Assembly: GCA_000955795.1 (NCBI GenBank)
Contig: JYOB01000007.1
Location: 62,001-126,000, forward strand
DNA: 64,000 nt
DNA from: Burkholderiaceae bacterium 26
GTDB lineage: Bacteria > Pseudomonadota > Gammaproteobacteria > Burkholderiales > Burkholderiaceae
Direction of reading: 5' to 3'
The position numbers and the translations under genes are program-made. Shown here piece after piece: positions 3 through 23,636 of this stretch; positions within the stretch are counted from its first letter, which is position 1; each line of letters opens with the position of its first letter. The notes under the pieces are model-generated. The model ran no database searches. It was not told the origin of the DNA and worked only from the letters and a program-made list of their open reading frames with translations.

Positions 3-947
<945 letters not shown>

Positions 948-1537
948 CGCAAGGACGACACGTCCCATCGCTTGGCTGCGGCGCGTTTCAACAGGGCAAG
1001 CCTGCCCAGAGCGCCGCCCCAATGCTGTAGGCCCGTTCAAACTGCATGATCAGTGAGAGGGTCTTGGGTTGTCATGATGCATCGTGCTGGGGAAGTTGGA
1101 ACAGCATTGCTAGATGCGTACGCTGATCGACTTCCTGGTTGACCGGTTCGCAGTACGGCCGCTCAGAAGTGAAAGTGCACAGGCTGGCAAAAGCCAGTGA
1201 GTGGCTGCTTACCGCCAGCGAACACGCTCGCGCGACTTGACGCAGATCAAACAATTCGCTCGCCCTGCTAAGGTTTTCGTTGCTTGCGTCGATTGAAGCA
1301 GGGGCACACCACAAGCACGAGTTGTGGTGCCCGCCACCATGTCGAGGTGCAGGCAGATCTGGCGAAGAATCCATCGAGGGCCCATTCCTCCCCGCAACGG
1401 AAGAACCGCTGGCGCAGTAAATCTAGGCGCCAATCTGCACATCTGACGCAACGCGCGACCCGCGCGTATGAGTGGTGCCAAACCGAAGTCCATCGGGTCC
1501 GCAGTCGGACAGAGCCCTTGAGCAAGAAGCACTACGC
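948..1537. other. Long intergenic region, no convincing gene
   Basis: These 590 bases separate arsA from the diguanylate cyclase gene. Short open frames exist on both strands, but none has a Shine-Dalgarno sequence plus a recognisable protein. The one clear signal is an FNR-type dyad at 1237-1250. No terminator with a U-tract was seen after arsA. The stretch could hold decayed gene remnants at the edge of an ars island; that is inference only. Confidence 0.5.
1237..1250. promoter_or_regulatory. Candidate FNR/ANR/DNR-type binding site
   Basis: The 14 bases TTGACGCAGATCAA match the CRP/FNR-family dyad TTGAT-N4-ATCAA with one mismatch in the fifth position. The site lies about 290 bases upstream of the diguanylate cyclase start. 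If it activates from -41.5, rightward transcription would begin near 1285 and leave a leader of about 250 bases. No -10 element could be fixed with confidence. A chance match remains possible. Confidence 0.4.
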
Positions 1538-4234: not shown

Positions 4235-4379
4235 CAACGGCGAATCTGGGTTTTTACCGCAGTCACGTGCTTCCGCTGGTGGGAAAAAATTGCCCTGCCA
4301 ACGCCTGGAAAAAGCGATTCAACCTGCACGGTGGACACGGCTGCAATGACAAAGCCGGTATCGCCCTCCAATCGCGCCA

Positions 4380-4766
4380 TCAGGACCGCTGTAGATCAAC
4401 GCTCGGACGAAAGATGCCTCCCGGTACAAGCGCGCAGATATCGAAGCCCATATCGTTGTCGCCAGTCTCTTCTGCGCCCTCGAGCGCCCAGTTCGCCCAA
4501 TCCTTCAATCGCCCGCAGGTACTTGCTCGAGCGTCGCTGGACTGGTGAAAGTAGACCTGCAACATCAACTCCGTCAGGTGAAATGAAAATGAATTGACCT
4601 GCTTGTCGCCTCGCGGGCCTTCTACTATCCACCACGCGTGTACATCTATTCCGCCCAGTTCGTCGCCTTCAAGCCGCAAGACGGCCCGACGAGGCAGCGT
4701 TTCTGTTAGCGCATCTTGGAGTTCACGTAGACAAGTCCTTTCGGCTTCGTTGATCCGCTCGCGCAT
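4380..4766 (-). CDS. Small protein of unknown family, paralogue A
   Basis: A 128-residue soluble protein that I do not recognise. The start at 4766 is chosen because GGAGG lies four bases upstream; an upstream ATG at 4799 lacks this. It is clearly related to the next gene on the same strand (4922-5374). Shared positions include LRELQ/LWELE near the N-terminus, LPRxAL/V, GGxDVxAxW, RGxxQ, a central aromatic block, RxxxW, and DxGxDxxxxVP near the C-terminus. No signal peptide, transmembrane helix or catalytic signature is visible. The 155-base gap to its paralogue could hold a separate promoter. A tandem duplication followed by strong divergence is inferred. Confidence 0.6.
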   Translation of the reverse strand: MRERINEAERTCLRELQDALTETLPRRAVLRLEGDELGGIDVHAWWIVEGPRGDKQVNSFSFHLTELMLQVYFHQSSDARASTCGRLKDWANWALEGAEETGDNDMGFDICALVPGGIFRPSVDLQRS

Positions 4767-4921
4767 AAGGCCTCCGCATTTCCGCGCGCCCACACTCACG
4801 GGCCGCTATTCGAAGGTAGCCGCTGCGCGCTCCTATGCCTTGACGGCGCACAATCAACCGGCGTTTAGAAAGCCGATCGGTGGACAGACACACCTCAAAA
4901 ACCTGTCGATAGAACTGCCGC

Positions 4922-5374
4922 TCAAGTCAACGGCGGCAGGGATGCGCCCCGATGGAGGGAAAAATCGTGTTCTCGGTCCTGCCGCCCCACACGAATGGCG
5001 TCTCTCTCATCAAGAAAGAAGGCATTTGGCACGGTGAGCACCAGGTCGTAGCCCGTGTCTGCGCACTGTTCTCCGCCCTGGAATTCCAACTGGACGGACA
5101 GCCATTCGCTGACCCGCCGACAGATCTCTTCCCGTCTGGGATGATTCAGTCGGCAGTACGCCTTGGCCTCAGCCACACCGAAATGCACCGCTAACGTGCA
5201 TTCCTGCCGATTGCCACGGACTGTCGACATCGTCCACTTCGCTGCCACATCGTAGCCACCGCAATTGGCACGAGCCGAATTGACGAGCGCCCCTCTGGGT
5301 AATGCACGGGACACTGAGGACTCCAGTTCCCAAAGCGTGGCGGCGACCACTTCGTCTGGTTGTTGTTCAAGCAT
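4922..5374 (-). CDS. Small protein of unknown family, paralogue B
   Basis: A 150-residue soluble protein, tandem to and related to the 128-residue product of 4380-4766. The shared framework is LxELxxxxxxxLPRxAL, GGxDVxAxW, RGxxQ, RxxxW and DxGYDxxxxVP. This copy has a charged C-terminal tail of about 30 residues rich in Asp, Arg and His that the other lacks. The start ATG at 5374 follows a GGGGAAA element at suitable spacing. Function is unknown. Its conservation with a neighbour is the main evidence that both are real genes and not chance frames. Confidence 0.6.
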   Translation of the reverse strand: MLEQQPDEVVAATLWELESSVSRALPRGALVNSARANCGGYDVAAKWTMSTVRGNRQECTLAVHFGVAEAKAYCRLNHPRREEICRRVSEWLSVQLEFQGGEQCADTGYDLVLTVPNAFFLDERDAIRVGRQDREHDFSLHRGASLPPLT

Positions 5375-5668
5375 GACGTTTCCCCGTTTTCAGCCTATTG
5401 GATGGCTTTTTCTAATAGCCCTCCACGGTAAGCCGATGCGGCCCTTCGCTGGCTGATACAGATCAACCTCTAAATCTGTCGCGCAGCACGTGAGAAATGA
5501 CGCTCACGGGTTTTCCAGCGCTCCAAGGCCGCCGATCGTCCTTTTTTCCCCCTCCATTGAAGAAATGGCCAACCGCCGCCGCTGCCTGGCAGCCAACCGC
5601 TCCGCGCCACCGGCGATGACCCTGGCATGCCGGCTGCTTCCGCCCACGGAGCGCAACGGAGGCCACGC
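5375..5668. other. Intergenic region between divergent genes
   Basis: These 294 bases lie between the leftward paralogue B and the rightward small exported protein, and presumably hold both promoters. An inverted repeat ACAGAT-N10-ATCTGT is at about 5458-5479. No small RNA or additional gene was recognised. Confidence 0.4.
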
Positions 5669-6019
5669 ATGCATCACGCATTACGAGTGACAAAGCGAAC
5701 TGCAGCAGGTTGGCTGTTCTTCCTGGCATCGACGGGCGGCAGCGGACTTTCGCTTGCGCAGCCTACTGAGCCGCGCCCGGCATCGCCAGACGTCGCTCCA
5801 GCGGCCCTAGCGAAGACCGCAAAACGCTCCTTGTCGCGATATCCGGACACCATGCAGGCCTCCGCGCCTGATCTGTCTACGCCGCAGGCCGCGTCTCCTT
5901 CCCCAGGATCGGGCGGGGCTGCGGGCATCGCTGAGCCTTCGGGCAACAGTGCCGCCGCAGGCCCCGGCGGCCCGGCCAACATGCGTGGCGAGCCTGCGCA
6001 TAAGCAGCCATTGCGTTAA
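5669..6019 (+). CDS. Small exported Pro/Ala/Gly-rich protein
   Basis: A 116-residue hypothetical protein. The start at 5669 has GGAGG six bases upstream. The N-terminus reads as a Sec signal peptide: basic residues, a hydrophobic stretch (GWLFFLAS) and small residues ending around SLAQ. The mature part is low-complexity, rich in Ala, Pro, Ser and Gly, with no cysteine or catalytic motif, and looks disordered. It lies 44 bases upstream of the DNA repair operon on the same strand and could share a transcript, but a periplasmic protein has no obvious link to that function. An upstream in-frame ATG at 5627 would mask the signal peptide. Confidence 0.55.
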   Translation: MHHALRVTKRTAAGWLFFLASTGGSGLSLAQPTEPRPASPDVAPAALAKTAKRSLSRYPDTMQASAPDLSTPQAASPSPGSGGAAGIAEPSGNSAAAGPGGPANMRGEPAHKQPLR

Positions 6020-6063
6020 TGTTGTCGCCAAAACCTGATAGGGGTCTCGAATGAGAGCGAGTG

Positions 6064-7110
6064 ATGACCAGCGCAGCAGAACTGATCGTGACAACGCCCA
6101 AAGGCCTGTACTGCCCAGTAGGCGACTTCTACATTGACCCTTGGCGGCCGGTTGACCGAGCCGTCATCACGCACGCCCACAGTGACCACGCCCGCATCGG
6201 GCACCAGCATTACCTCGCTGCCGCCCCTGGTGCGGGTGTGCTGCGTGCGCGCCTGGGTGACGACATCCCCCTGCAGACGCTGCCGTACGGGGAATCCATC
6301 GTCCATCACGGCGTCCGGTTGAGCTTTCATCCGGCGGGGCATGTACTCGGGTCCGCGCAGGTGCGGCTGGAATACGGCGGCGACGTGTGGGTCGTGTCCG
6401 GCGACTACAAGGTCGAGGCGGATCGCACCTGCACGCCGTTCGAGCCGGTGCGCTGCAACACATTCATCACTGAATCCACATTCGGACTGCCGATCTACCA
6501 CTGGCGGCCACAGACCGAGATCTTTGCGCAGCTCAACGCATGGTGGCGCGGCAATGCCGAAGCTGGCCGCGCGAGCGTCGTGTTCTGCTATGCGTTCGGC
6601 AAGGCCCAGCGCATTCTGTCGGGGATCGATACCGGCATCGGGCCAATTGTTTCGCACGGCGCCATGCTGCAGTTAGACGCCGCCTATCGGCACGCGGGCG
6701 TGGCGCTCCCACCCACGCAACTGGCGACCGACGTGCCCCGCACTGAATTGCGACGCGCGCTCGTGCTGGCGCCACCCTCCGCCCAACGCACGCCGTGGAT
6801 GCGCCGTTTTGGCGACTATGCCGATGCCTTTGCCAGCGGCTGGATGCAGCTTCGCGGGGCACGCCGGCGGCGCGGCGTCGACCGCGGTATCGTGCTGTCC
6901 GATCACGCAGACTGGCCTGGCTTGCAGCAAGCCATTGATGCCACGGGCGCCACGCGGGTCTATGTCACGCACGGGCAGGTGGCGCCGATGGTGCGCTGGC
7001 TGTGCGAGCGCGGCCTGGATGCGCGCGCATTCGCCACCGAGTATGGCGACGAAGGCGAAGAAGCCGATGCAGCCGAAGCAGTCGAACCAGCGGACCCGCC
7101 CGCGCCATGA
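6064..7110 (+). CDS. Ligase-associated DNA exonuclease (metallo-beta-lactamase/beta-CASP type)
   Basis: A 348-residue cytoplasmic nuclease of the family encoded beside ATP-dependent DNA ligases. The metal-binding motif THAHSDHAR (HxHxDH) is near residues 37-45. Further expected elements are PAGHVLGSAQ, SGDYK and a late LSDHADW. The start may be this ATG or the GTG immediately before it. The gene ends in ATGA, overlapping the ligase start by four bases, so the two are translationally coupled. By its family it should process DNA ends in a repair pathway with the following ligase, helicase and endonuclease. RNA-processing relatives share the fold, but the neighbourhood favours DNA. Confidence 0.88.
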   Translation: MTSAAELIVTTPKGLYCPVGDFYIDPWRPVDRAVITHAHSDHARIGHQHYLAAAPGAGVLRARLGDDIPLQTLPYGESIVHHGVRLSFHPAGHVLGSAQVRLEYGGDVWVVSGDYKVEADRTCTPFEPVRCNTFITESTFGLPIYHWRPQTEIFAQLNAWWRGNAEAGRASVVFCYAFGKAQRILSGIDTGIGPIVSHGAMLQLDAAYRHAGVALPPTQLATDVPRTELRRALVLAPPSAQRTPWMRRFGDYADAFASGWMQLRGARRRRGVDRGIVLSDHADWPGLQQAIDATGATRVYVTHGQVAPMVRWLCERGLDARAFATEYGDEGEEADAAEAVEPADPPAP

Positions 7111-8753
7111 AAGCCTTTGCCGATCTGTACGCGCAGCTCGACGCCACCACATCGAGCAACGGCAAGTTGGCCGCACTGGTGGCCTACCTGCGCACCGCGC
7201 CCGATGCCGATGCCGCCTGGGCGGTCTACTTCCTGGCCGGCGGCAAGCCCCGCCAGTTGGTGCCCGTGCGTGTGCTCGCCAGCTTTGCCCAGACCACATC
7301 CGGCTTGCCCGAATGGCTGTTTGACGAGTGCTACCAAGCCGTCGGCGACCTGGCCGAGACGATCGCCCTGGTCCTGCCCGATGCGGATCATGCAGACGAC
7401 GCCACCCTGGCCGAGTGGATGGAAACGCGCCTGCTGCCATTGCGTGGTCAGCCGCCCGAGCTGGTACTGCCTCGCCTTGCCGAACTGTGCCGGGGCCTTC
7501 CGCTGCAAGCGCGGCTGGTGTTGATGAAGTTGATGACCGGGGCGTTTCGTGTGGGGGTGTCAAAACTGCTCGTCACGCGCGCGCTGGCCGAAGTGGGCGG
7601 CACCGACCCCAAGCACGTCGCGCAACGGCTGATGGGCTATACCGACATCGGCCAGGCACCCACCCCCGAGCGCTATCGCGCGCTGCTGGCCGATGCCAGT
7701 GCCGATGGCCATGCGCTCGATACCGGGCACCCGTATCCGTTCTTTCTTGCGCATCCGCTGCAGGCCGACGCGCAAGCCTTCGACACACTGCTTGGCTCAC
7801 CCACTGAATGGCAAATCGAATGGAAGTGGGATGGCATCCGCGCGCAACTCGTGCGCCGCGCCGACAGCGCATGGCTGTGGTCGCGTGGCGAGGAACTCAT
7901 CACCGACCGATTTCCCGAACTGTCCACCATGGCGGGGGTATTGCCCTCGGGCACCGTGCTCGATGGCGAGATCGTGGTGTGGCAAGCGGGCCGCGTGCAG
8001 CCCTTTGCGCTGCTTCAGCAACGCATCGGCCGCAAAACGCTGAACGCGCGCGTGCTGCGAGAAGCGCCGGCCGTGCTGCTGGCGTATGACCTCCTCGAAT
8101 GGCAGGGGCAGGATTTGCGCGAGCGCACGCAGAGCGAGCGGCGCGTGCAACTCGAACGTGTGATTGCCGAATACATTCATCCGGCGCTGGAGCTGTCTCC
8201 GTTGCTTCAAGGCGACGACTGGCAGCATCTTGCGCACCAGCGCGAAGCCTCCCGCGAGCTTGGCGTGGAGGGGCTGATGCTCAAGCGGCGCGACGCACGC
8301 TACGGCGTGGGGCGCACCAAGGATGTGGGCGTGTGGTGGAAGTGGAAGATCGATCCGTTCTCGGTCGATGCCGTCCTCATCTATGCGCAGCGCGGCCACG
8401 GCCGGCGCGCGAGCCTGTATACCGACTACACCTTTGCCGTATGGGATGCGCCGCCCGAGGTGCCCGAGCGCAAGCTGGTGCCCTTTGCGAAGGCGTACTC
8501 CGGCCTGAGCGACGCGGAGATCCGGCAGGTCGACGCGCTCATCCGCAAGACCACGGTTGAAAGTTTTGGCCCCGTGCGCAGCGTGACCCCGACGCTGGTG
8601 TTCGAACTCGGCTTTGAAGGCATTGCACGCAGCGCGCGCCACAAGAGCGGCATCGCTGTGCGGTTTCCGCGCATGCTGCGCTGGCGCCATGACAAGCCCG
8701 TTGCCGAAGCTGATACCTTGCAGACGCTGGAAAGCCTGCTGCCGCCGTCATGA
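7107..8753 (+). CDS. ATP-dependent DNA ligase, repair-operon type
   Basis: A 548-residue ATP-dependent ligase. It has an N-terminal DNA-binding region, a nucleotidyltransferase core and a C-terminal OB-fold. Motif I is [10 protein letters not shown] with the adenylated lysine at about residue 240. Later motifs include DGEIV, EGLMLK and WWKWK. There are no LigD polymerase or phosphoesterase domains. The start at 7107 is set by the four-base ATGA overlap with the exonuclease; longer upstream translation is arginine-rich and unlike the family. It also overlaps the helicase start by four bases. It probably seals nicks or breaks prepared by its operon partners. Confidence 0.92.
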
Positions 8754-11365
8754 ACGAACCCGCAATGCCCGATCTTGATGCATGGTTTGCCGCGCGCGGC
8801 TGGGAGCCAATGCCGTTCCAGCGCGCCGTGTGGTCGGCCATGGCGCGCGGCGAATCGGGCCTGCTGCACGCCACCACGGGGGCGGGGAAAACCTATGCGG
8901 TGTGGCTCGGCGCGCTGCAGCGGTTGGCGCAAGTGCGCGGGCGCGGCGGCGCGCCGCCTTTGTCCGTGCTGTGGCTCACGCCCATGCGTGCGCTGGCGGC
9001 CGACACCACGCGCGCATTGAACGAAGCTGCACAGGCGCTGGCACCGCACTGGACTCTGGGCTTGCGCACCGGCGACACCGGCAGCACCGAGCGTGCCGCG
9101 CAATCGCGCCGTTTGCCCACCGCCCTGGTGACAACGCCCGAAAGCCTGTCGTTGCTACTCGCGCGTGCTGACGCCCGTGAAGCGCTTGGCTCGGTGCGCG
9201 TGGTCATCGTGGATGAATGGCACGAACTGGTCGGCAACAAGCGTGGCGTGCAGGTGCAATTGGCGCTGGCACGATTGCGCGCGTGGTCGCCGGGGCTCGT
9301 CGTGTGGGGGCTCTCCGCCACGCTGGGCGACCTGGCGGAAGCCATGGATGCGCTCAGCGATGCCGGGAACCCCGCCACCGGAACGCTGGTGCAAGGCCAC
9401 CTGCCCAAGCGCATGGAGATTGATACGTTGCTGCCGGATGGTGTAGGCCGGTTTCCATGGGCCGGACACCTGGGCATGGCGATGCTGCCCCACGTGCTTG
9501 ATGAGTTGGAAAGTGCCCGCACCGCACTGGTGTTTCTCAATACGCGCTCGCAGGCGGAGCTGTGGTACCAGGCCGTCATCAATGCGCGGCCGGAATGGGC
9601 GGGGCTGATCGCGTTGCATCACGGCTCACTGGACCGCTCAACGCGCGACTGGGTCGAGACCGGGCTCAAGCAAGGCATGCTCAAGGCGGTGTTCTGCACG
9701 TCAAGCCTGGATTTGGGCGTCGACTTTCTGCCGGTGGAACGCGTCCTGCAGATCGGCTCACCCAAGGGCGTGGCGCGGCTGTTGCAGCGTGCAGGGCGAT
9801 CGGGCCACGCGCCGGGCCGGCCCTCTCGCGTAACGGTGGTGCCCACGCACAGCCTTGAACTCGTGGAAGGCGCGGCCGCGCGCGCTGCCGCCATGTCGGG
9901 CCACGTGGAAGCCCGCACCTCGCCGCACAAGCCGCTCGATGTGCTGGTCCAGCATCTGGTGACGGTGGCGCTGGGCGGCGGCTTCGTGCCCAACGCGCTT
10001 CTGGAAGAAGTGCGCCGCGCCTGGGCCTACCGAGACTTGCGCGACGACGAGTGGCAATGGGCGCTCGACTTCGTGCGACAAGGCGGCCACTCGCTCACCG
10101 CATATCCCGACTACCACCGCGTCACACCAGACGAGCACGGGGTCTGGCGCGTGCCCGATGCTCGGCTCGCGCGGCGGCACCGCATGAGCATCGGCACCAT
10201 CGTCAGCGATGCAACGATGACCGTGCGCTGGTGGCGTGCTTCCGGCGGCGGTGCCCTGGGGTCGATCGAGGAAGGTTTCATTGCCCGGCTGCGCCCTGGC
10301 GACAACTTCCTGTTTGCGGGCCGCTTGCTGGAGCTGGTGCGCGTGCAGGACATGACGGCCTATGCGCGGCGTGCCACCGGCAAACGTGCTGCCGTGCCCC
10401 GCTGGAACGGTGGTCGCATGCCGCTTTCCACCGAGCTGGCGCACGCGGTGGTGGCGCAGCTTGATGCGGCGGCACATGCGCGTTTCGATAGCCCCGAAAT
10501 GGAGGCCGCGCGCCCGCTGCTGGAGCTGCAGGCGCGCTGGTCTGCGCTGCCCACCACCGCAACGCTGGTGGCCGAAACCCTGCACTCCCGCGAGGGCTGG
10601 CATCTCTTTCTCTACCCGTTTGCCGGGCGGCATGCCCACCTGGGGCTGGCAAGCTTGCTGGGCTGGCGCGCCGCCAATCGCACGCCGGCCACGTTTTCCC
10701 TGGCGTTCAACGACTACGGCCTCGAACTCCTGTCGGCCACGCCCATCGACTGGCCCGCGTTGCTGGCCAGCGGCGAACTCTTTTCCACCCACACTCTCAT
10801 GCAGGATGTGCTGGCCAGCCTCAACGCTGGAGAACTCGCACAACGCCGCTTTCGGGAGATCGCACGCGTATCGGGGCTGGTGTTCCAGGGCTACCCCGGC
10901 GCGCACAAGAGCACGCGCCAGTTGCAGGCTTCATCCGGCCTGTTCTATGAAGTCTTCCGGCGCCACGACCCGGGCAACCTGCTGCTCTCGCAAGCGGAAA
11001 CCGAAGTGCTGCGCCAGGAGCTGGACCTCGACCGCATTGAATCCGCCCTCATCCGCATGCGCGGTTTGCGGCTTGAACTGTGCGCGCTGACCCGGCCTTC
11101 GCCGTTCGGCTTTCCGTTGATGGTGGAGCGTTTTCGCGAACAGCTCTCGACCGAGAAACTGGCGGATCGGATCGCACGCATGCTGGCCGAAGCCGAGCGC
11201 GCCGCAGGCCCCGAGCCGACCGATCCGGATGCCGCAACACGGCCAGAAATCGAGACAGACGTACAGGCCGCGTTGCGCTTGACTGAATCGCCCGACACAG
11301 CGGGCAAATCCAGCCGCCGCACGCGCCGGCCACGCAAGACATCGAAGCCACTCCCACTGCTATGA
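8750..11365 (+). CDS. Ligase-associated DEXH-box helicase (Lhr-Core-like)
   Basis: An 871-residue superfamily 2 helicase. Walker A ATTGAGKT is near residues 42-49 and the DEWH box near 155-158. Other helicase elements include [16 protein letters not shown] and QRAGRSGH (motif VI). About 450 C-terminal residues correspond to the winged-helix and Lhr-specific domains. Pseudomonas Lhr-Core proteins are 3'-to-5' ATP-dependent translocases and helicases. It is coupled to the ligase before it and to PdeM after it by four-base overlaps. The last roughly 60 residues are basic and low in complexity. Confidence 0.92.
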
Positions 11366-12575: not shown

Positions 12576-13445
12576 TCACGCCTTCTTTTCACCAAGCTCC
12601 GCACCGGTGGTGGGATCGACAGCCGGGTCCGAAGCCAGACGCGTCTTCATGGCTTCGAGCGCTTCCAACTCCGCATCGGTCAAATTGACCGATGCATTGC
12701 CATCGCCACCGTCAACGGGCACCGGAGGGTCCGCGACCAGCTCAAGCCCCGTGCCGCTATTCCACGGTGCCTGCACGATGGGGCCGCCGCGCGACATTTT
12801 GAAATACGCGTCACTGAACTCCGGTACCGGCGGCAGCTTGCCAGGAGGGAAGTTGCCGTTGATGGCGTAGAGCGCCTTCTCGAACGACTTCTGGTGCGAC
12901 ACTTCGCGCGTCATGAGAAAGCCGAGCGCATCGCGCACACCGGGGTCATCGCTCACGTTGATCAACCGTTCGTAGATGATCTTGGCGCGTGCTTCGGCGG
13001 CAATGTTCGAGCGCAGATCGGCCGTGGGCTCGCCTAGCGAATCGATGTAGGCCGCCGTCCACGGCACGCCCGCCGAGTTCGTCAACGACGGGCCGCCGCC
13101 ATAGAGCACCTGCGTCACATGGCTGTCATTACCGGCGCCATTGAGCTTTCGATACAACTCCGCCTGCTCGTCCACCGCTTCCGCCAATTCTCCTTTCGCA
13201 CCGCGATTGAGCATGGCGACGATGGTGCCGATGATCTCAAGGTGGCTCAGTTCCTCCGTCGCGATGTCGTAGAGCATGTCCTTGCGGCCTGCATCTTCTT
13301 CTGCCACGGCTTGCGTGAAGTAGCGCATGGCGGCAGCAAGCTCGCCTTGCGGGCCACCGAACTGTTCCAGCAACAGGTTGGCCAAGCCTGGATCGGTTTC
13401 GCTAACCCGAACGGTGTACTGCAATCGCTTGTTGTGCATGAACAT
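12576..13445 (-). CDS. Manganese catalase family protein
   Basis: A 289-residue non-haem catalase that disproportionates hydrogen peroxide at a dimanganese centre. Ligand-bearing segments of the four-helix bundle are visible: QGELAAAMRY, EELSHLE, AEARAKIIYE and TREVSHQ. The start at 13445 has GGAGA upstream at good spacing; longer versions lack family character. The C-terminal 50 residues are acidic and probably flexible. The gene is divergent from an Nramp-type metal transporter across 142 bases, which suggests joint control of manganese uptake and the manganese enzyme. It is longer than the smallest family members but within range. Confidence 0.88.
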   Translation of the reverse strand: MFMHNKRLQYTVRVSETDPGLANLLLEQFGGPQGELAAAMRYFTQAVAEEDAGRKDMLYDIATEELSHLEIIGTIVAMLNRGAKGELAEAVDEQAELYRKLNGAGNDSHVTQVLYGGGPSLTNSAGVPWTAAYIDSLGEPTADLRSNIAAEARAKIIYERLINVSDDPGVRDALGFLMTREVSHQKSFEKALYAINGNFPPGKLPPVPEFSDAYFKMSRGGPIVQAPWNSGTGLELVADPPVPVDGGDGNASVNLTDAELEALEAMKTRLASDPAVDPTTGAELGEKKA

Positions 13446-13587
13446 GGGTGTTCTCCGGGAATGGGTGGGTGCCTTCATGGCGCGTCCCTTCTCCGCAACA
13501 CCCGTTCCATCGCACGCCGCACGCTTGCCCTGCGCGATCAGGTACGCGCGTTGCGAAGGGCCCTGCGCCACCTATCCGGGAGATTCC
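13446..13587. promoter_or_regulatory. Divergent promoter region, Mn catalase / Nramp
   Basis: These 142 bases must contain the promoters for both the leftward catalase and the rightward transporter gene. I could not fix -10/-35 elements or a clear OxyR, MntR or Fur dyad by eye. The assignment rests on gene orientation only. Confidence 0.4.
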
Positions 13588-14883
13588 ATGGACGACAGTC
13601 TCGCGCTGGAACGCGACACCTCTTCTGCATCGCGATGCGTCGTCGCCCACGCGCGCGAAGCGCTGGAAGGCCGGCGACGTGGCTGGCGCACGTTCATCCC
13701 GTTTGTCGGGCCGGCTGTGGTGGTTTCAGTCGCGTATACCGACCCGGGCAACATCGCCACCGGCATTGAAGCTGGTGCGCGATACGGGTATCAGTTGCTC
13801 TGGGTTGTGCTCGCATCCAGCGTGGTGGCGATGCTGTTCCAGATGCTCTCTGCACGGGTGGGCATTGTGACGGGCCAGAATCTGGCGCAGCTCTGTCGCA
13901 CGCATTTGCCGGCACCTGCCGGCCTTGGCATGTGGCTGATCAGCGAGCTTGCAGCCATGGCGACCGACCTTGCGGAGTTCGTCGGTGCCGCGGTCGGCAT
14001 CGCGCTCCTGACGGGAATGCCGTTGCCGCACGCCATGGTTATCGCCGGTGTGCTGGCCTATCTGCTGCTGACGTTGCAGGCGCGCGGGTTCCGCCATGTC
14101 GAGCTGATGATCGGCGCGCTGGTGGCCGTGATCGGTATCTCTTACATCATCCAAGTGTGGATCTTGCCTGTTTCGTGGACGGCCGCGCTCCGGCAAACCC
14201 TGGTGCCTACTGCGCTGCCGCCCGATGCGTTCATGTTGGCGGCAGGCATTGTCGGGGCCACGGTGATGCCGCACGCGCTCTTTCTGCACTCGGGGCTGGT
14301 CAATGCGCGTGTGCGCCCGCGCTGTGCGTCGGAGACGTCGCAACTGCTTCGGTATTCCAACCGCGAGGTGGTGGCCGCGCTAGCCGCTGCCGGCTGCATC
14401 AACCTTGCCATGGTGGTGGTATCAGCAGGCGCGTTTCACGGCACACATGCGGAGGTGGCCGGCATTGAGGATGCCTATGTCACGTTGGCGCCGCTGTTCG
14501 GGGCATCGGCCGGGCTGGTGTTTCTGGTCGGGCTGATCGCGTCGGGGTTGTCCAGCTCAGTGGTCGGCACACTGGCAGGGCAGATGGTGCTGCAGGGTTT
14601 CCTGCGTGTGCGCTTGCCGGTGTGGATGCGCCGGCTGATCACCATGGTGCCTGCGTTCATCGTTATCGGGGCGGGTATGGATGTCACGCGCGCCCTTGTG
14701 CTCAGCCAAGTCATTCTGAGCATGGTGGTGCCGTTTCCCATGGCTGCGCTGATCTGGTTAGCGCGCCGGCCCGACTTGATGGGACAGCATGCAGCCGGTC
14801 ACGGTCTGGTTGTGCTGGCTACGGTAGGCGCCGCGCTGGTGGCGGGGTTGAACCTTGCGCTTCTCGCCCATCTCGTCGCATAG
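13588..14883 (+). CDS. mntH: Nramp-family divalent metal (Mn2+) transporter
   Basis: A 431-residue inner-membrane protein with about eleven transmembrane helices. The first helix has the metal-binding DPGN and the sixth has MPH, both hallmarks of Nramp proton-coupled Mn2+/Fe2+ importers. AMATDLAEF in the third helix resembles E. coli MntH. The start at 13588 follows GGGAGA. A longer in-frame extension would overlap the divergent catalase gene and is rejected. The neighbouring manganese catalase supports manganese as substrate. A second Nramp gene lies at 62469-63788. Confidence 0.9.
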   Translation: MDDSLALERDTSSASRCVVAHAREALEGRRRGWRTFIPFVGPAVVVSVAYTDPGNIATGIEAGARYGYQLLWVVLASSVVAMLFQMLSARVGIVTGQNLAQLCRTHLPAPAGLGMWLISELAAMATDLAEFVGAAVGIALLTGMPLPHAMVIAGVLAYLLLTLQARGFRHVELMIGALVAVIGISYIIQVWILPVSWTAALRQTLVPTALPPDAFMLAAGIVGATVMPHALFLHSGLVNARVRPRCASETSQLLRYSNREVVAALAAAGCINLAMVVVSAGAFHGTHAEVAGIEDAYVTLAPLFGASAGLVFLVGLIASGLSSSVVGTLAGQMVLQGFLRVRLPVWMRRLITMVPAFIVIGAGMDVTRALVLSQVILSMVVPFPMAALIWLARRPDLMGQHAAGHGLVVLATVGAALVAGLNLALLAHLVA

Positions 14884-17114: not shown

Positions 17115-17304
17115 GCTTGTGCCGACTTGGAGTGTCTCAACTGGTTGATGAACGACCAAACCGCATGCAATAAGCATTCCCTGGCCCCCGAACAGGCGAG
17201 ATAACGCCTCCACGGTGCTGAACCTTTGCTATGCTTGCTCGAAGCGCGCTGCACAGCGTTGCTTCCATTGAATGGTCAACTTTACTCAACCATCTATTCT
17301 CACT

Positions 17305-17730
17305 ATGGCCACCAAAACCAAGACCGCTGCCAAGACCGCTGCAAAGAAGGCCTCGCCGGCTAAGAAGGCCGCTCCGGCTAAGAAGCCTGCCGCAACGACG
17401 CCGACCCTCAAGCCTTTGAAGGACACGTTCACCAAGGCGAGCCTGGTGAGCCATCTGGCTGAACAAGCTGCCGTCGACGCCAAGGCGGTGAAGGCGGTGC
17501 TGCTCCATCTGGAGAACACCATCGTGGCTTCGCTGCACAAGAAGGGCGCCGGTGAATTCACGCTGCCGGGCCTGTTCAAGGTGACGTCGGTCAAGGTGCC
17601 GGCAACCAAGCGCCGCTTCGGCAAGAACCCCTTTACCGGCGTCGACCAGTGGTTCGAAGCCAAACCGGCAACCGTGCGTGTCAAGGTCCGCGCCCTGAAG
17701 AAGGTCAAGGACGCAGCGGTCAACAGCTAA
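17305..17730 (+). CDS. HU-family DNA-binding protein with lysine-rich (H1-like) N-terminal tail
   Basis: A 141-residue nucleoid protein. Residues 1-35 are an Ala/Lys/Pro tail with repeated AAKK and PAKK, like the C-terminal domain of histone H1. Residues about 45-135 form an HU/IHF fold, including GEFTLPGLFKV and KRRFGKNPFTG, the latter corresponding to the DNA-clamping arm. It probably bends and compacts DNA, the tail adding non-specific affinity. This arrangement is known in Burkholderiaceae. The start at 17305 is the usual family start; an alternative ATG at 17272 adds 11 residues. A strong terminator follows. Confidence 0.9.
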   Translation: MATKTKTAAKTAAKKASPAKKAAPAKKPAATTPTLKPLKDTFTKASLVSHLAEQAAVDAKAVKAVLLHLENTIVASLHKKGAGEFTLPGLFKVTSVKVPATKRRFGKNPFTGVDQWFEAKPATVRVKVRALKKVKDAAVNS

Positions 17731-17844: not shown

Positions 17845-18477
17845 CTAGCGCGCCTTACCCCGCGCCTTTCCGCCACTGCGAGCAGCCTCGTGGCCGCCAG
17901 CAGCCCCGTCCCCGCTCATGCGTTCGAGCCACGAAAGCGCGTCCACATACGCCAAAAACTGCCGCAGATAATCGGGTGACACCTCGCGCATCAATAGCAG
18001 TGACCGACGCACCAGACTGCTCGAATTCAGCGGACCGGCATTCACCGGCACCTTGTCCAACGCGTCGCGCAGCTGTTTCTCGGCGCTCACGCGGGACCAG
18101 GTGTCCCGCATGTCCTCAAGAATCTTCAGCTCTGGCAATGCTTGCAGATGACGTGCAGAACGGCCTTCTGCAACACTGCCGACATTCGTGCGTTCACGGC
18201 TGGCGATGTCACGCAGCAGTTCGGCCAGCGCGCTGCCGGCAGGCGCGTCTGAGTCGGTCGCATCGGCGGTCGCCGCCGCCCGGTCGACGTCTTCTGCATA
18301 GGCAGCGACCAGCTTGACCAACCGCGCTTCAAGCATGCGCCGCGCCTCGCCGGTTTGATCGGCCGTGCGCCGATGCAGCGCCTCGATAAAGAAAAAGCGC
18401 ACGCGGTCCAGCCGGTCCGCGCCGCTTGCGCGCCAACTGTCGAGCGTGGCTTGCGTGGGCAAATCAGTGCGGCTCAC
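17845..18477 (-). CDS. DUF2894-type protein, last gene of motor operon
   Basis: A protein of about 210 residues, soluble and largely helical, rich in Ala, Arg and Glu. An N-terminal block with SGADRLDRVRFFFIEAL and RRMLEARL fits my recollection of DUF2894 proteins that accompany DUF802 and OmpA genes in Burkholderiaceae. All candidate starts are GTG (18528, 18486, 18477). The last is chosen because GGTGGA precedes it and the resulting N-terminus resembles the family. It then overlaps the end of the OmpA-type gene by 14 bases. The C-terminus ends in a short basic Gly/Lys/Arg tail. Function is unknown; a cytoplasmic role tied to the membrane motor is inferred from context. Confidence 0.7.
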   Translation of the reverse strand: MSRTDLPTQATLDSWRASGADRLDRVRFFFIEALHRRTADQTGEARRMLEARLVKLVAAYAEDVDRAAATADATDSDAPAGSALAELLRDIASRERTNVGSVAEGRSARHLQALPELKILEDMRDTWSRVSAEKQLRDALDKVPVNAGPLNSSSLVRRSLLLMREVSPDYLRQFLAYVDALSWLERMSGDGAAGGHEAARSGGKARGKAR

Positions 18478-19135
18478 GGCGTCCACCGTTGGAAGCGGCC
18501 TGCCTTGGAACTGGCGCGATCTCCACACGCCGATTCTTCGCGCGGCCGACGTCGTCCGCGTTGGAACTCACGGGCTGCTGCGAGCCAAACGCTGCTGCAA
18601 ACACGCTGGACGCGGGAATGCCTTCGTCAATCAGCGCGCGCGTGACGGTCAAGGCGCGCTTGGCGGACAGCTCCCAGTTATCTGCAAACAGGCGGTTGCC
18701 GGCACGCACCTGCTGATCGTCGGAGAACCCGCTCACCATCAGGATCTCTTCACGCGATGTGAGATACGCGGCCAGCGGCCCCGCCAGGCTCTTCATCAGC
18801 GCACGGCCCTCGGGTTGCAACTGGTCGGAATTGATCGCGAACAGCACATTGCCATTGATGCCGATGCGCCCGTTGACAAGCGTCACGCGCCCGGCCGCCA
18901 GCGGGCCAGCAAGCGCCTGCTCCAGCGTCTTGCGGCGCTGCGCCTCGGCCTCGCGCTGCTTGACCTCGCTCTCCAGCTTGGACGACAGCTCCAGCTGCAC
19001 GCCGATCACGCCCACCAGAATCAGCACGAACGCGCCCAGCAACACCGACATCAGGTCACCAAACGCGGCCCAAACCGGTGCGGCGGCCTCAATGCCACCT
19101 GCGCCATCTACGCCACCGTCAATCTCGTCGCTCAT
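18464..19135 (-). CDS. MotB/ZorB-like stator protein with OmpA-type C-terminus
   Basis: A 223-residue single-pass inner-membrane protein. The N-terminal helix at about 23-45 begins WAAFGDLMSVLL. Asp27 sits where MotB and ZorB carry their ion-binding aspartate. A charged coiled segment at about 50-75 leads to an OmpA/Pal-like periplasmic domain at about 80-210, with NWELSAKRA and AKNRRVEI as in peptidoglycan-binding OmpA domains. It overlaps the preceding DUF802 gene by four bases (ATGA) and is probably its stoichiometric partner. No flagellar, Tol-Pal or Exb genes are nearby. Role as an ion-driven motor subunit is inferred from sequence pattern. Confidence 0.82.
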   Translation of the reverse strand: MSDEIDGGVDGAGGIEAAAPVWAAFGDLMSVLLGAFVLILVGVIGVQLELSSKLESEVKQREAEAQRRKTLEQALAGPLAAGRVTLVNGRIGINGNVLFAINSDQLQPEGRALMKSLAGPLAAYLTSREEILMVSGFSDDQQVRAGNRLFADNWELSAKRALTVTRALIDEGIPASSVFAAAFGSQQPVSSNADDVGRAKNRRVEIAPVPRQAASNGGRREPH

Positions 19136-21438
19136 GCCGCGTCGGCCCCGGCCAGTGCGCGCTGGTCACCCAGCCGTTGCAGGTCTTCCAGGATCTGCTT
19201 CTGAGACAGCATGCTCAGGTCGATCACCTCGCGCGCCTGCGCCACGTAGTAGGCAAGCTGTTCGTCGCTGCGCGTGAGCGACTTGTCCAGCGCGGCTTCA
19301 ATGCGCTGCAACTGGGCAGCAAGCTTGTCGTTCGATTCGCCAAACAGCTGCACAGCCGCACCAAAGGCCTCGCCCAGGCTCGCCACCTCGACCGCGCTGC
19401 CGGTCACCTGCGCGGCCACCGCGCCGAGCTTGCCGGTCTCGGCCTCCACCCGATCGGTAAATCGCACGCCCACGCGCTCCAGCAGATCCGCCGACGTTGC
19501 CACCAGCGCATCGACCGCCGTGCGCTGCTCGGTCGATGCATGGTTGACGGCGTCGAGCAGCGTTTCGAGCGTGCCCAGCAGGCGCGCACGCTCGTCCAGC
19601 ATGGCGGTATCGCGCACCATGCTGTCGGACAGCTTCTGGCGCAGCTCGGCCACCACTTCCGCTGCCGCCTTGGGCGCTTCCGATGCGGCCTGCACCAGGC
19701 GAGAAATCTCGCTGATCGTGTTGTTGGCGTGCGCCTGCGTTTGCGCGGAGATGTCGCGCGCGGTTTGCGCCAGCGCATCGCAAATCTGTTGCTGACGGCT
19801 CGCGGTATCGGTGCCTGTTTTCTCCCACGCCTCGCTCAGCTTGGCGGCCATCGTGCCGAGCGCATCGGTCCAGGCCGCCAGACGCTGCGCGTCGCGCGCT
19901 TCCAGCGCAGCTTGCAGCGTGGCATGCGATTGGCGCGACGCCTCCTGCTGCGAAGCGATATCGCGCGCGGTCTGCGCCAGCGCATTGCAGATGTCTTGCT
20001 GGCGATTTGCCGTATCGGCGCCCGCTTTCTCCCAGGCTTGGCTCAGCTTCTCACCCGTGGCGCCGAGCGCCTCGGTCCAGGCAGCGAGACGTTGCGCGTC
20101 TCGTGCTTCCAGCGCAGCTTGCAGCGCGGTATGCGACTGGCGCGACGCGTCTTGCAACGACACGGCGTGTTGCTCGAACGTGGCGGCAGCGGCCTCCAGC
20201 GCGCGCTGGTTCTGGACGGCCAGTTCGGCGTGTGCCTGTTCTTGGCGGGCAAGCGCATCGCGCCAAGCTGCGGCCAAGCCGCCTACCGTGGCGTCCAGTC
20301 GGTCGGTAACGCCATCGAGCAACCGCGCCGAGCGTTGCTCGAATGTTTCAGCAAACCGGTCGAGCGAGGTGCCGACCTGGCCAACCAGGGCTTCGCTGGA
20401 ACGTTGATGCGCCGACAGGGCGTTGTTCCAGATGCCGGAAACCGTCTCGGCCGTGGCTTCAAAGCGGGTCGACAGGCCATCCAGCTGACGCTGCACCGCG
20501 TGCGTGACCGTTTCCTGCAGCGCAGCCGATTCGCGCGCGAGCCCAGCCATCGTCGTTTCCACCACAGGCTGCAGCGCGGCGCTGGCAACGCGTGCGCTCT
20601 CCGCTGCGCTGTCCTTCAACGACTGGCCCACGGAAGAAGCAAGCTGGCTGTAGGCGGCCTCCGTCTTGTCGAGAAATGCCTGCTGGGCGGCGATCTGCCG
20701 CTCGCTGCTGGCTGCGCCCTGCTGCTCCAGCGACGCCATCATCGCCTGCAACCGGTCAACCAGCGCGGGCATCACATCGGATTGCCGCTGCAGAAGCTTG
20801 AACGTCTCTTCACGCTGATGCGCGTGCGAATAGATGCGCAGCGTGGTCGCGATCTTTGCGTCGAGCGCCTGCACGGCCTGCAGCCGCTCGCGCCGGCACA
20901 GCGCCGAGAGCAACCCCAGCATGGCGGACGTCGCCACACCGGCAATCGACGTCCCGAACGAGAACCCCAACCCCTTGATCGGGGCAGCAAGCGATGCGCG
21001 GATCGCCTGCAAATCCGTCGCGCTCTCCAGCGCCGCGCCCGTGCCCTTGAGCGTCACCACCATGCCAAGCAGCGTGCCCAGCATGCCGAGCAGCACCAGC
21101 AGGCCCACCAGATACGGCGTCAGCGCGGGCGCAGGCAGCGCGACGCGCTCGCCTTCCACGCGCAGGCGCACGGCATTGCGCAGGCTCGGGTGCAGTTGTT
21201 CGAGCCAGGCGGCCAGATTGGTGGGTGCCTCGGACAGTCCTGCCGCGGCCTGCGTGACCGTGCCCGTGGCGTGGCGATAGCGGCGCAATTCCAGCGCGCC
21301 GGCCACGTAGGCGGCACCAATCACCAGCGTGACAGCCAGCGCGAGCAAGTTGCCACCAACGAGGTAACCGCCGGCAATCCACCCCAAGGCCGCGAGCCCG
21401 ACAAAGAAAACGATGAGATTCAGGTGAAGTCTGGACAT
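19132..21438 (-). CDS. DUF802-type MotA/ZorA-like membrane protein with long coiled-coil tail
   Basis: A 768-residue inner-membrane protein. Helices lie at about 8-27 and 30-50, then at 108-130 and 158-178. The latter pair reads as the MotA/TolQ/ExbB core, with GMLGTLLGMV, IKGLGFSFGTSIAG and SAMLGLLSAL. About 580 residues of predicted cytoplasmic coiled coil follow, poor in Pro and Gly and rich in Ala, Gln, Glu and Leu. The tail includes two adjacent 69-residue repeats. This layout, motor core plus long intracellular tail, resembles ZorA of the Zorya defence system, but no ZorC, ZorD or ZorE is present. It overlaps the OmpA-type gene by four bases. The biological role of DUF802 proteins is unknown to me. 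Confidence 0.82.
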   Translation of the reverse strand: MSRLHLNLIVFFVGLAALGWIAGGYLVGGNLLALAVTLVIGAAYVAGALELRRYRHATGTVTQAAAGLSEAPTNLAAWLEQLHPSLRNAVRLRVEGERVALPAPALTPYLVGLLVLLGMLGTLLGMVVTLKGTGAALESATDLQAIRASLAAPIKGLGFSFGTSIAGVATSAMLGLLSALCRRERLQAVQALDAKIATTLRIYSHAHQREETFKLLQRQSDVMPALVDRLQAMMASLEQQGAASSERQIAAQQAFLDKTEAAYSQLASSVGQSLKDSAAESARVASAALQPVVETTMAGLARESAALQETVTHAVQRQLDGLSTRFEATAETVSGIWNNALSAHQRSSEALVGQVGTSLDRFAETFEQRSARLLDGVTDRLDATVGGLAAAWRDALARQEQAHAELAVQNQRALEAAAATFEQHAVSLQDASRQSHTALQAALEARDAQRLAAWTEALGATGEKLSQAWEKAGADTANRQQDICNALAQTARDIASQQEASRQSHATLQAALEARDAQRLAAWTDALGTMAAKLSEAWEKTGTDTASRQQQICDALAQTARDISAQTQAHANNTISEISRLVQAASEAPKAAAEVVAELRQKLSDSMVRDTAMLDERARLLGTLETLLDAVNHASTEQRTAVDALVATSADLLERVGVRFTDRVEAETGKLGAVAAQVTGSAVEVASLGEAFGAAVQLFGESNDKLAAQLQRIEAALDKSLTRSDEQLAYYVAQAREVIDLSMLSQKQILEDLQRLGDQRALAGADAA
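19735..20148 (-). repeat. Tandem 207-bp (69-codon) repeat inside the DUF802 gene
   Basis: Two adjacent copies (19942-20148 and 19735-19941) encode units that each begin ASRQSH, continue LQAALEARDAQRLAAWT and end near LAQTARDI. They are about 80% identical at protein level by eye and strongly similar in DNA. The period is a whole number of codons, so copy-number change would lengthen or shorten the coiled-coil tail without a frameshift. Confidence 0.85.
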
Positions 21439-21456
21439 GAATGGTGTCTGTCCCGC

Positions 21457-22191
21457 TTAGCGGGGGCGAAGGGCTGCAAGCAACCCGTCGACCGGTTGAA
21501 AACGAACATCGAGCTCGGCCAGGAGCACGCTCTGCATATCTTTGCGGAACGCATCCAGCCAGGCGCGGGATGTGGATTGGGTGGCCTGGCCCTCTGCGGG
21601 CAACTGGGCCTGCCGCTGCTGCTCGGCCGCGCGCAAGCGCTCGAAGTACGGCCCCAGCATCGACGGAATGGCCCCCAGCAACGAACGTTCGCGGCCTGCG
21701 AGCGCTTGCTCCATGCTGGCGTCCAATACCGCAAGTCGCGCGAGGTCGGGCGTCCTGGCAGCCAGTAGGCGTCGCAGGCGGCCACGCAGGTCGCCAATTT
21801 CCAGCTCCATCGTCTGCTGCATCAGCACGTAGCGCTGCCGGAAATCGGCATAGTCGACCACCAGCGGCGCCGAAGGGCTCTGGATCGGCGCGCGTGGGCC
21901 CGTCCTGGCATCAGGCGCACAGCTGGACGCGATGGATTTCGCCAGCGCTGCACGGACACGGCTACCGATCGTCTCGGCGTCCGGGCCAACGGGCCGCGTG
22001 CTGGAGGCAATGGCGGGCGGCGTCGCGCTCAGTGCCGACGAAAGCGTGATGGCATCCGTCCAACTGAGCCATTGGCTCAACCGGTCGGAAAGTGGCTGCG
22101 CGGATGCGGAAACGTCAACGTCCGTCAGGCGAGCAAGAATGCGGATCAGCGCAGGGCCGCTGAGCGCCCTGCGTTGCTGGACGTGCGCCAT
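21457..22191 (-). CDS. DUF3348-type protein, first gene of motor operon
   Basis: A 244-residue soluble, mostly helical protein. The N-terminus (SGPALIRILARLTD, then LSQWLSWTDAI) fits DUF3348 proteins as I remember them. A Gln/Arg/Leu-rich helical region follows at about 115-200. It lies 18 bases upstream of the DUF802 gene and heads a four-gene operon. No catalytic motif, signal peptide or membrane helix is visible. There is no clear Shine-Dalgarno before the ATG at 22191. A terminator-like hairpin ends 14 bases upstream. A scaffold or regulatory role for the motor is speculation. Confidence 0.75.
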   Translation of the reverse strand: MAHVQQRRALSGPALIRILARLTDVDVSASAQPLSDRLSQWLSWTDAITLSSALSATPPAIASSTRPVGPDAETIGSRVRAALAKSIASSCAPDARTGPRAPIQSPSAPLVVDYADFRQRYVLMQQTMELEIGDLRGRLRRLLAARTPDLARLAVLDASMEQALAGRERSLLGAIPSMLGPYFERLRAAEQQRQAQLPAEGQATQSTSRAWLDAFRKDMQSVLLAELDVRFQPVDGLLAALRPR

Positions 22192-22233: not shown

Positions 22234-22490
22234 TCGTCGGAAAGCCGTCTTCGGGTGGCATAAGCATCACTTCTCAAGAAGAATCGCAGCGATCAGTCGG
22301 CTCGCCGGCGATACAGGGCCGCATCCTCCAGCGCATAGCGCGGCATTGGGCCTTTCCTGACATGGGTCTCCGCCGAAACCGCGTCAGTCCAGCGCTGCTC
22401 CGGTCACCGGTCCGCATTTGTGCGATCACGCCGACAGCGGTATCGTGTCGCCCACTACCGCACCCTCCCCCGCATTCCTCCCATATCCCC

Positions 22491-23636
22491 GTGACCGATC
22501 ACCCTACCCTCACCTGGACCGACGACCGCCCTGACGCCACCAGCGACGCCGTCCATACCGCCGTCTGGCACTCCGAGGCCGGCAATCCGCCGCCCAAGCG
22601 CGTGGTCGTTGCGGACGATCGCACCACCGCCGATGCCGCCTACCGCCTCGCCTGCGAGGGCACGGCACTGCTCTGGCAGGGCGATTTCCAGAACGCGCGC
22701 CAACTGCTGCAGGCCATGTCCCGCCGCACAGACCGCAAACCACGCAAGGAAGCCACCTCGCCCATCGATGCGTTCAACCTGCACCGGCAAGCGCAATCGC
22801 AGCGCGCACGCACGCTCGGCATGCTGCTGATTCCGCTGGATGCGGATTACGCCATCCCGCTGCGCCGCGCGCCCGACATGCGCGAAGCCTGCACGGAGGC
22901 TTACGGCACGAGCAGCGTCGCTTCCGTCGTCTCGCTGCGTGAGCTGCTCGGCCTGATCGGCGCGCATGAGTGGCGCAAGAAAGGTGTCGAGATTCCCGCG
23001 CTCGGCGGTGAGCGCATTCACCCGCACTACGGCGTGTTCTCGCCGGTGCGTGGCGAATACGTCGATCTGGTGGCGAAGGTGCCGTTGCCTTCAAAAGCGC
23101 TGGCATTCGACATTGGCACGGGCACGGGCGTGCTCGCGGCGGTGCTGGCCAAACGCGGCGTGAAGCGCGTCATCGGCACGGATCAGGACCCGCGTGCCCT
23201 GGCCTGCGCCCGTGAGAACGTGGCGCGCCTTGGGCTGCAAACCCAGGTCGATATTGTTGAGGCCGATCTGTTTCCCGAAGGCCGTGCGCCGCTGATCGTG
23301 TGCAACCCGCCGTGGCTGCCGGCACGGCCAAGTTCGCCCATCGAGCGCGCTGTTTTCGACCCAGACAGCCGCATGCTGCGCGGCTTTCTGGATGGGCTGG
23401 CTGCGCACCTGGAGCCCAACGGCGAAGGCTGGTTGATCCTCTCAGACTTTGCCGAGCATCTGGGCCTGCGCACGCGCGATGCGCTACTGGCGATGATCGA
23501 CTCCGCCGGCCTGCAGGTCGCGAGCCGTGAAGACATCAAGCCGAAGCACCCGAAGGCGAGCGATGAAAACGACCCGCTCTATCAGGCCCGCGTTGCCGAA
23601 GTGACGTCGTTGTGGCGCCTGAAGGCGCGCCAATAG
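22491..23636 (+). CDS. Class I SAM-dependent methyltransferase (NPPW-type)
   Basis: A 381-residue methyltransferase. The SAM-binding motif I DIGTGTGVLAAVLA is at about residues 208-221, an acidic residue (GTDQD) ends the second strand, and motif IV is VCNPPWLP. NPPY/NPPW marks N-methylation of an amide or base nitrogen, as in HemK/PrmB/RsmC-like enzymes. About 180 N-terminal residues precede the catalytic domain, possibly for substrate binding. The GTG at 22491 is chosen because upstream translation looks non-coding, but no clear Shine-Dalgarno supports it. The substrate is unknown. The gene is convergent with the flavoprotein gene, nine bases away. Confidence 0.8.
   Translation: MTDHPTLTWTDDRPDATSDAVHTAVWHSEAGNPPPKRVVVADDRTTADAAYRLACEGTALLWQGDFQNARQLLQAMSRRTDRKPRKEATSPIDAFNLHRQAQSQRARTLGMLLIPLDADYAIPLRRAPDMREACTEAYGTSSVASVVSLRELLGLIGAHEWRKKGVEIPALGGERIHPHYGVFSPVRGEYVDLVAKVPLPSKALAFDIGTGTGVLAAVLAKRGVKRVIGTDQDPRALACARENVARLGLQTQVDIVEADLFPEGRAPLIVCNPPWLPARPSSPIERAVFDPDSRMLRGFLDGLAAHLEPNGEGWLILSDFAEHLGLRTRDALLAMIDSAGLQVASREDIKPKHPKASDENDPLYQARVAEVTSLWRLKARQ

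Follow-up and report, generated by a model that had tools for sequence, protein, structure and literature searches.

The DNA analysed here, a stretch of 64,000 nucleotides that we call the window, carries four adjacent minus-strand genes that resemble the operon of a membrane motor. A preliminary description proposed a separate class of motor in Burkholderiaceae, and the question is whether the operon is such a class or a member of a system that already has a name. The four genes, in order of transcription, are these.

21457..22191, minus strand: DUF3348 gene, 244 aa (ZorG3 in PADLOC-DB)
19132..21438, minus strand: zorA3, encoding a DUF802 protein of 768 aa
18464..19135, minus strand: zorB3, encoding an OmpA-family protein of 223 aa
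17845..18528, minus strand: DUF2894 gene, 227 aa by the listed ORF (ZorF3 in PADLOC-DB)

Identity of the operon

The four-gene set is real. All four ORFs are confirmed, and their products match the Pfam families DUF3348 (E=2.9e-86), DUF802 (E=2.4e-30), OmpA (E=4.6e-18) and DUF2894 (E=3.2e-58), in agreement with the DUF3348 and DUF2894 types first given to the partner proteins. The operon spans 22191 to 17845. Eighteen bases separate the DUF3348 gene from zorA3, zorA3 and zorB3 overlap by 4 bases, and zorB3 overlaps the DUF2894 gene by 65 bases with the listed GTG start; if DUF2894 began instead with the GTG at 18486, its start would lie closer to those of its relatives.

PADLOC models for Zorya type III match the proteins one by one, as ZorG3 (E=3.1e-93), ZorA3 (up to 1319 bits, best E of 0), ZorB3 (380 bits, E=5e-115) and ZorF3 (E=6.1e-74). 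The genes are very probably the motor operon of Zorya type III, which was defined in 2021 with 6,401 instances, according to the available text of the publication (PMC8565338). Given the four matches and this publication, the operon is not an unrecognised class of motor. Zorya III is an already catalogued system, named and phage-tested in 2021, and the locus in the window is an ordinary member of it. Nor is the system particular to Burkholderiaceae, since type III is also present in Comamonadaceae, Xanthomonadaceae/Lysobacteraceae, Rhodanobacteraceae, Alcaligenaceae and Rhodocyclales. What stands of the preliminary description is a motor pair that resembles ZorAB, has a long tail and two uncharacterised partner proteins, and differs from Zorya I and II; it had missed the operon's published name, and also a canonical Zorya I system elsewhere in the same genome. 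The 2021 paper calls DUF3348 ZorF and DUF2894 ZorG in its text, and the PADLOC-DB models (PDLC00652-00658) have these two names interchanged.

The same text reports that Zorya III from S. nitritireducens DSM 12575 reduced plating in E. coli BL21-AI for one or more of the phages tried, and that this copy also protected liquid cultures at a low phage dose. A homologue search recovered the published contig, LDJG01000021 (locus L135), with the same four genes. Identity between the window and this contig is 44% for DUF3348, 59% for ZorA, 71% for ZorB and 42% for DUF2894. Gene content, gene order and family models are the same in both, without a type-defining difference, and ZorA has 768 aa in the window versus ~798 aa in the published copy.

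The motor pair and its neighbourhood

Hydropathy, alignment and Pfam locate the following features within zorA3 and zorB3.

20896..21111, minus strand: ZorA3 membrane helices 3 and 4 (residues 110-181), from hydropathy and alignment
20155..20475, minus strand: two DUF802 repeats in the ZorA3 tail (contig positions 82155-82310 and 82317-82475, offset 62000)
19726..20139, minus strand, limits approximate: two tandem 69-residue units in the ZorA3 tail, from alignment
19055..19057, minus strand: codon of ZorB3 Asp27, presumed ion-binding, from alignment
18530..18844, minus strand: OmpA domain of ZorB3 (residues 98-202), Pfam E=4.6e-18

ZorA3 has four membrane segments by hydropathy, at residues about 9-27, 31-49, 110-128 and 159-181. 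Hydropathy and alignment place a tail of 587 residues after helix 4, close to the ~580 first estimated for this 768-residue protein, and the tail is probably cytoplasmic. Thr122, Thr163 and Ser164 of helices 3 and 4 show no variation among the 17 relatives aligned, and all 129 loci (123 distinct) carry the Thr of the helix-3 GT motif.

ZorB3 has a single membrane segment, residues 28-46, directly after Asp27. It matches NF006547 with 385 bits, as well as MotB and OmpA structures and models, in agreement with the earlier view of a MotB-like protein with Asp27 and an OmpA domain. Asp27 is invariant in the 17 aligned relatives, and each of the 128 loci that have a ZorB keeps this Asp (120 distinct sequences); its loss among homologues, named at the outset as a sign against a motor, was not seen at these loci. 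The first search pattern found 124 loci each for the ZorB Asp and the ZorA Thr, and the remaining four and five, respectively, were confirmed by eye. Four residues of the OmpA domain, Arg160, Asn201, Arg202 and Arg203, are likewise invariant (17/17). When ZorB3 is compared by BLASTP with the type I ZorB of the same genome, the N-terminal parts align Asp on Asp. Asp27 is presumed, from sequence, to be the ion-binding residue, and the OmpA domain would bind peptidoglycan.

The length of the ZorA tail shifts mostly by whole repeat units. The 69-residue type of unit differs in copy number between species, with two copies in the ZorA of the window and one in that of Ralstonia sp. SET104 (L070; 699 aa). 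Among trimmed ZorA sequences, 33 of 101 (33 of 100 distinct) have 696-701 aa, and longer proteins cluster at 768, 784-788, 796-801, 855, 871-872, 958-959 and 1015 aa, up to a maximum of 1027 aa; some lengths fall between clusters. The commonest spacings of the tail motif are 87, 80, 69 or 102 residues, and motif count accounts for only part of the length (r=0.69). These mostly stepwise lengths offer a natural series with which to probe tail function.

A flagellar or Tol/Exb-type motor with lineage-specific partners, rather than Zorya, would fit the MotB and OmpA matches of ZorB3. However, among motor families the ZorA homologues match ZorA models only. NCBIfam ZorA_1 matches 12 of 17 homologues, ZorA_2 nine, ZorA_4 two and ZorA_3 one, while the MotA, TolQ and ExbB models match none of the 17 at E 0.01 and Pfam MotA_ExbB is absent among the families matched at the same threshold. 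The ZorA of the window itself has two NCBIfam matches, both under the curated cut-offs (best ZorA_2, 28.8 bits versus 100). The gene-by-gene agreement with four PADLOC type III models also speaks against this alternative, as does the absence of flagellar, Tol or Ton families from ten neighbours scanned with Pfam (two of which have no Pfam match). We consider it highly improbable. The MotAB flagellar stator was rejected as a separate candidate: ZorA3 is not recognised as MotA, and there are no flagellar neighbours.

PADLOC detects no ZorC, ZorD or ZorE in the ten neighbours of the operon, so the original remark that no such genes, and no flagellar or Tol genes, lie nearby was accurate. The only PADLOC match of any kind among them is a partial one to mad2, so that within these ten genes the operon does not look like part of a defence island. 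This match (64 bits) belongs to a divergent methyltransferase-domain gene at 22362-23636 that adjoins the operon and is present in six of six Ralstonia loci. Just downstream lies a convergent gene for an HU-like DNA-binding protein with a Lys/Ala-rich N-terminus (17272-17730; five of six Ralstonia loci). Genes for a manganese catalase and an Nramp-type metal transporter (12576-14883), whose ORFs overlap on opposite strands as listed, are also kept in five of the six.

Partner proteins and possible outputs

Neither partner protein has a membrane segment by hydropathy. AlphaFold models of both are all-helical, with pLDDT 87.6 and pTM 0.84 for DUF3348, and pLDDT 77.0 and pTM 0.43 for DUF2894, the fold of which is uncertain because of the low pTM. 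Pfam searches with the 60 members of each partner alignment find only the protein's own DUF, apart from one marginal match in one DUF2894 member, and PDB searches by fold and sequence give no clear relative. Models, Pfam and PDB searches thus show no enzyme domain in either protein, and type III therefore has no recognisable counterpart of ZorD or ZorE, although DUF3348 or DUF2894 could be a novel enzyme. Because an enzyme domain was seen in neither, the partners may be regulators or adaptors docked on the ZorA3 tail, a role to which we give about an even chance.

The available text of PMC11890865 describes types I and II as having a ZorA5B2 motor to which the Asp, the tail and binding to peptidoglycan are important, and type III may form the same assembly. 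Five ZorA3 and two ZorB3 subunits would then be expected to make an ion-driven motor in the inner membrane, with the OmpA domain of ZorB3 as an anchor to peptidoglycan and the ZorA3 tail reaching into the cytoplasm. A phage that disturbs the envelope might cause ZorB3 to grip the wall, upon which ions would pass Asp27 and ZorA3 would rotate. The tail could relay this motion, or a change of shape, to DUF3348 and DUF2894, which would stand in for ZorC and ZorD or for ZorE. The output might come from ions leaking through the motor, or from a host factor that is recruited.

Alternatively, still within Zorya, the output could be attack on DNA by a host nuclease that DUF3348 and DUF2894 as a pair recruit to the tail, rather than leakage. 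Zorya II has a nickase, ZorE, as its effector, as PMC11890865 reports in the part available, and ZorD of the type I system in the same genome carries SNF2 and Mrr domains. DUF2894 is also the fastest-changing of the four genes (dN/dS 0.29), as one might expect of a protein with a changing partner or target. Yet the operon itself appears to be without a nuclease, and Payne et al. propose instead that the two partner proteins regulate ZorAB (PMC8565338, available text). Attack on DNA by a recruited nuclease is possible but rather doubtful.

Conservation, position and distribution

In the synteny survey suggested in the preliminary description, 125 of 130 loci have the complete set, in an unchanged order and on a single strand (119 of the 125 distinct by ZorA and ZorB sequence); the other five are cut by contig ends. 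The first 100 loci comprise 20 relatives and 80 named loci, the latter being the best 80 of at least 534 confirmed. The four-gene order is found in 96 of them and the other four are at contig ends; 94 of the 96 show it as printed, and two differ through one over-long ORF. Among 30 further loci, 29 are complete and the remaining one is at a contig end. The four genes are associated more than chance would explain. Laboratory strains with the operon include Paraburkholderia xenovorans LB400 (locus L110) and Cupriavidus metallidurans CH34 (NC_007974.2, near 1,768,076).

In a comparison of seven Ralstonia sequences, all four genes show purifying selection. Median dN/dS, calculated like dS with our own Nei-Gojobori script, is 0.03 for ZorB, 0.10 for ZorA, 0.17 for DUF3348 and 0.29 for DUF2894. 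Median dS is 0.27-0.42 for the operon versus 0.26-0.56 for four neighbours (six sequences for one of them), and this similarity is the expectation of vertical inheritance within Ralstonia.

The position of the operon is well kept only in Ralstonia, and only loosely elsewhere. Three neighbours on one side are common to six of six Ralstonia loci, and 10 of 15 locus pairs have more than one-fifth of their outer flanks in common; the five low-sharing pairs probably all involve one locus (L048). Three other genera were compared over 45 pairs each, of which 10, 11 and 21 exceed one-fifth. By the same test, control flanks of RecA do so in 45 of 45 pairs in each genus, and those of HsdR in 1 and 0 of 45 in two genera. 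This control is uncorrected for replicon: in the complete genomes retrieved, RecA and the operon are mostly on different contigs, and gene order on a second chromosome may be looser. Among the named loci, median within-genus flank sharing is 0 to 0.02 outside Ralstonia, which is represented there by a single pair.

A ZorAB tree was made by a quick method with a midpoint root from 100 rows, including the window; one locus without ZorB (L069) was left out. The 10 Ralstonia rows form one clade, and Variovorax and Xanthomonadales are largely grouped by themselves. However, Xanthomonadales fall among Burkholderiaceae, Cupriavidus is separated from Ralstonia, and neither Paraburkholderia nor Caballeronia stays in one group. 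The loose position and this tree together imply that the history of the operon probably includes old transfers and many relocations. In a metagenome-assembled genome labelled Rhodanobacter denitrificans (L138), ZorAB groups with Stenotrophomonas and falls next to the published copy in the tree, which might reflect transfer or mis-binning.

We used DUF3348 as a proxy for the whole operon in counts across genomes. It is present in 206 of 299 Burkholderiaceae genomes, evenly sampled, with a single match in 199 of the 206. Frequency varies with genome size, from 0/68 below 3 Mb and 14/24 at 3 to 5 Mb to 192/207 at 5 Mb or more (genus and size labels came from a RecA search that listed all 299 genomes, 291 of them with a match). 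The seven largest sampled genera have 40/40, 34/39, 33/38, 32/40, 31/32, 15/16 and 0/40, the last being a genus with 2-Mb genomes. In the window's own genus, Ralstonia as judged by the nearest named rows, DUF3348 is present in 15 of 16 genomes, with one match each, and the negative genome is 88% complete. Type I restriction (HSDR_N), our yardstick for a defence system, was found in 111 of 298 family genomes (108 over the cut-off; this search covered one genome fewer), and in 87 of the 207 genomes of at least 5 Mb. Beyond Burkholderiaceae, DUF3348 occurs in 70 of 198 genomes of a gammaproteobacterial family on the Xanthomonas side (that of G388), and in 20 of 398 genomes of a phylum sample (19 over the cut-off). 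By these counts, DUF3348 resembles a core gene in large Burkholderiaceae genomes and has a patchy occurrence in others.

The phage and plasmid records searched are nearly devoid of this gene. None of 50,697 phage records matches it, and the 27 matches in 72,556 plasmid records are all to plasmids of at least 366 kb, of which 20 are predicted to be non-mobilizable, 7 mobilizable and none conjugative. A plasmid search with ZorA3 returned the same organisms. Across genomes, the distribution of Zorya III is unlike that of a typical defence system. New here are the near-universality in sampled large Burkholderiaceae genomes, the absence from the searched phage and smaller plasmid records, the contrast with Zorya I, and the mostly stepwise tail.

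Such a distribution raises the possibility that the operon serves chiefly as an envelope machine resident in large Burkholderiaceae genomes, acting in wall or membrane upkeep or in stress signalling, and that protection in E. coli is a by-product of the over-expression of a motor that conducts ions. The excess over type I restriction in large genomes, the usual single copy, the near-absence from mobile elements, the Ralstonia dS values resembling those of neighbours and the partners without a visible enzyme domain are all consistent with this idea. So is a result in B. cenocepacia K56-2, in which PADLOC predicts Zorya I and III. On infection by phage Bcep176, transcription changes in the leading one or two genes of each Zorya operon, but in a knockdown screen no predicted defence system altered fitness on this phage, for which the authors offer several possible reasons, such as systems being inactive on Bcep176 (PMC12584637, available text). 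This is the one native test that we found; it is negative, and it counts against the explanation of the operon as a defence motor, as do the distribution unlike that of defence systems and the lack of a significant BLASTP match between ZorA3 and the ZorA1 of the same genome. Weighing against an envelope machine, one copy has measured protection from phage, in liquid culture too (PMC8565338, available text). Further, the loose position outside Ralstonia and the old transfers suggested by the tree are more accessory-like, the operon is dispensable (none of the small genomes has it, and it is missing or went undetected in 15 of the 207 large ones), and family models point to ZorA proteins as its closest relatives among motors. 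On balance, a mainly resident envelope machine seems quite unlikely.

Zorya III could be a core-genome branch of Zorya: a resident envelope motor of large Burkholderiaceae genomes, borne on chromosomes or chromids, with no enzyme of its own, a tail lengthened mostly in whole units and a native role that lies at least partly beyond phage defence. We put this forward tentatively, as a rather unlikely reading. The published evidence for defence that we found concerns one copy in E. coli (PMC8565338, available text). The new quantitative results do not show that defence is not the job of Zorya III; they merit a direct test.

Relation to known motors and Zorya types

ZorA3 and ZorB3 resemble MotAB in their plan of a four-helix protein and a one-helix partner with an Asp at its start. 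TolQR and ExbBD are likewise comparable in membrane plan and Asp. The operon differs from all three in that ZorA3 matches no MotA, TolQ or ExbB model, has a tail of 587 residues and has no corresponding genes among the ten neighbours scanned.

With Zorya II the operon shares a ZorAB motor, and ZorA_2 is the best NCBIfam match of the window's ZorA, although its score is far below the cut-off; unlike in Zorya II, there is no ZorE nearby.

Zorya I can be compared within the same genome. A canonical type I system with ZorA, ZorB, ZorC and ZorD lies on another contig (G000:C2:335000-352000, locus L175, positions 869-9080), next to genes for an AAA_27 ATPase, a phosphoesterase and a DUF4236 protein. 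Both types have a long-tailed ZorA and a ZorB with the Asp, and a profile comparison aligns helices 3-4 of ZorA3 with this ZorA1 at 31% probability. Type I has ZorC and an SNF2-Mrr ZorD where type III has two small helical proteins. The two also differ in distribution: ZorC of this type I system is found in two of 16 Ralstonia genomes, including the window's own, versus 15 of 16 for DUF3348. Type I ZorC matches 24 plasmid records, 20 of them from Klebsiella and three conjugative; the 17 Klebsiella plasmids among the matches listed are 41-196 kb long and match over 67% coverage at 27% identity. A Zorya III that is near-universal in the sampled large Burkholderiaceae genomes, beside a Zorya I that is rare in the same genus, raises the question of whether motors of this kind were ordinary cell machinery from the start or turned into it later.
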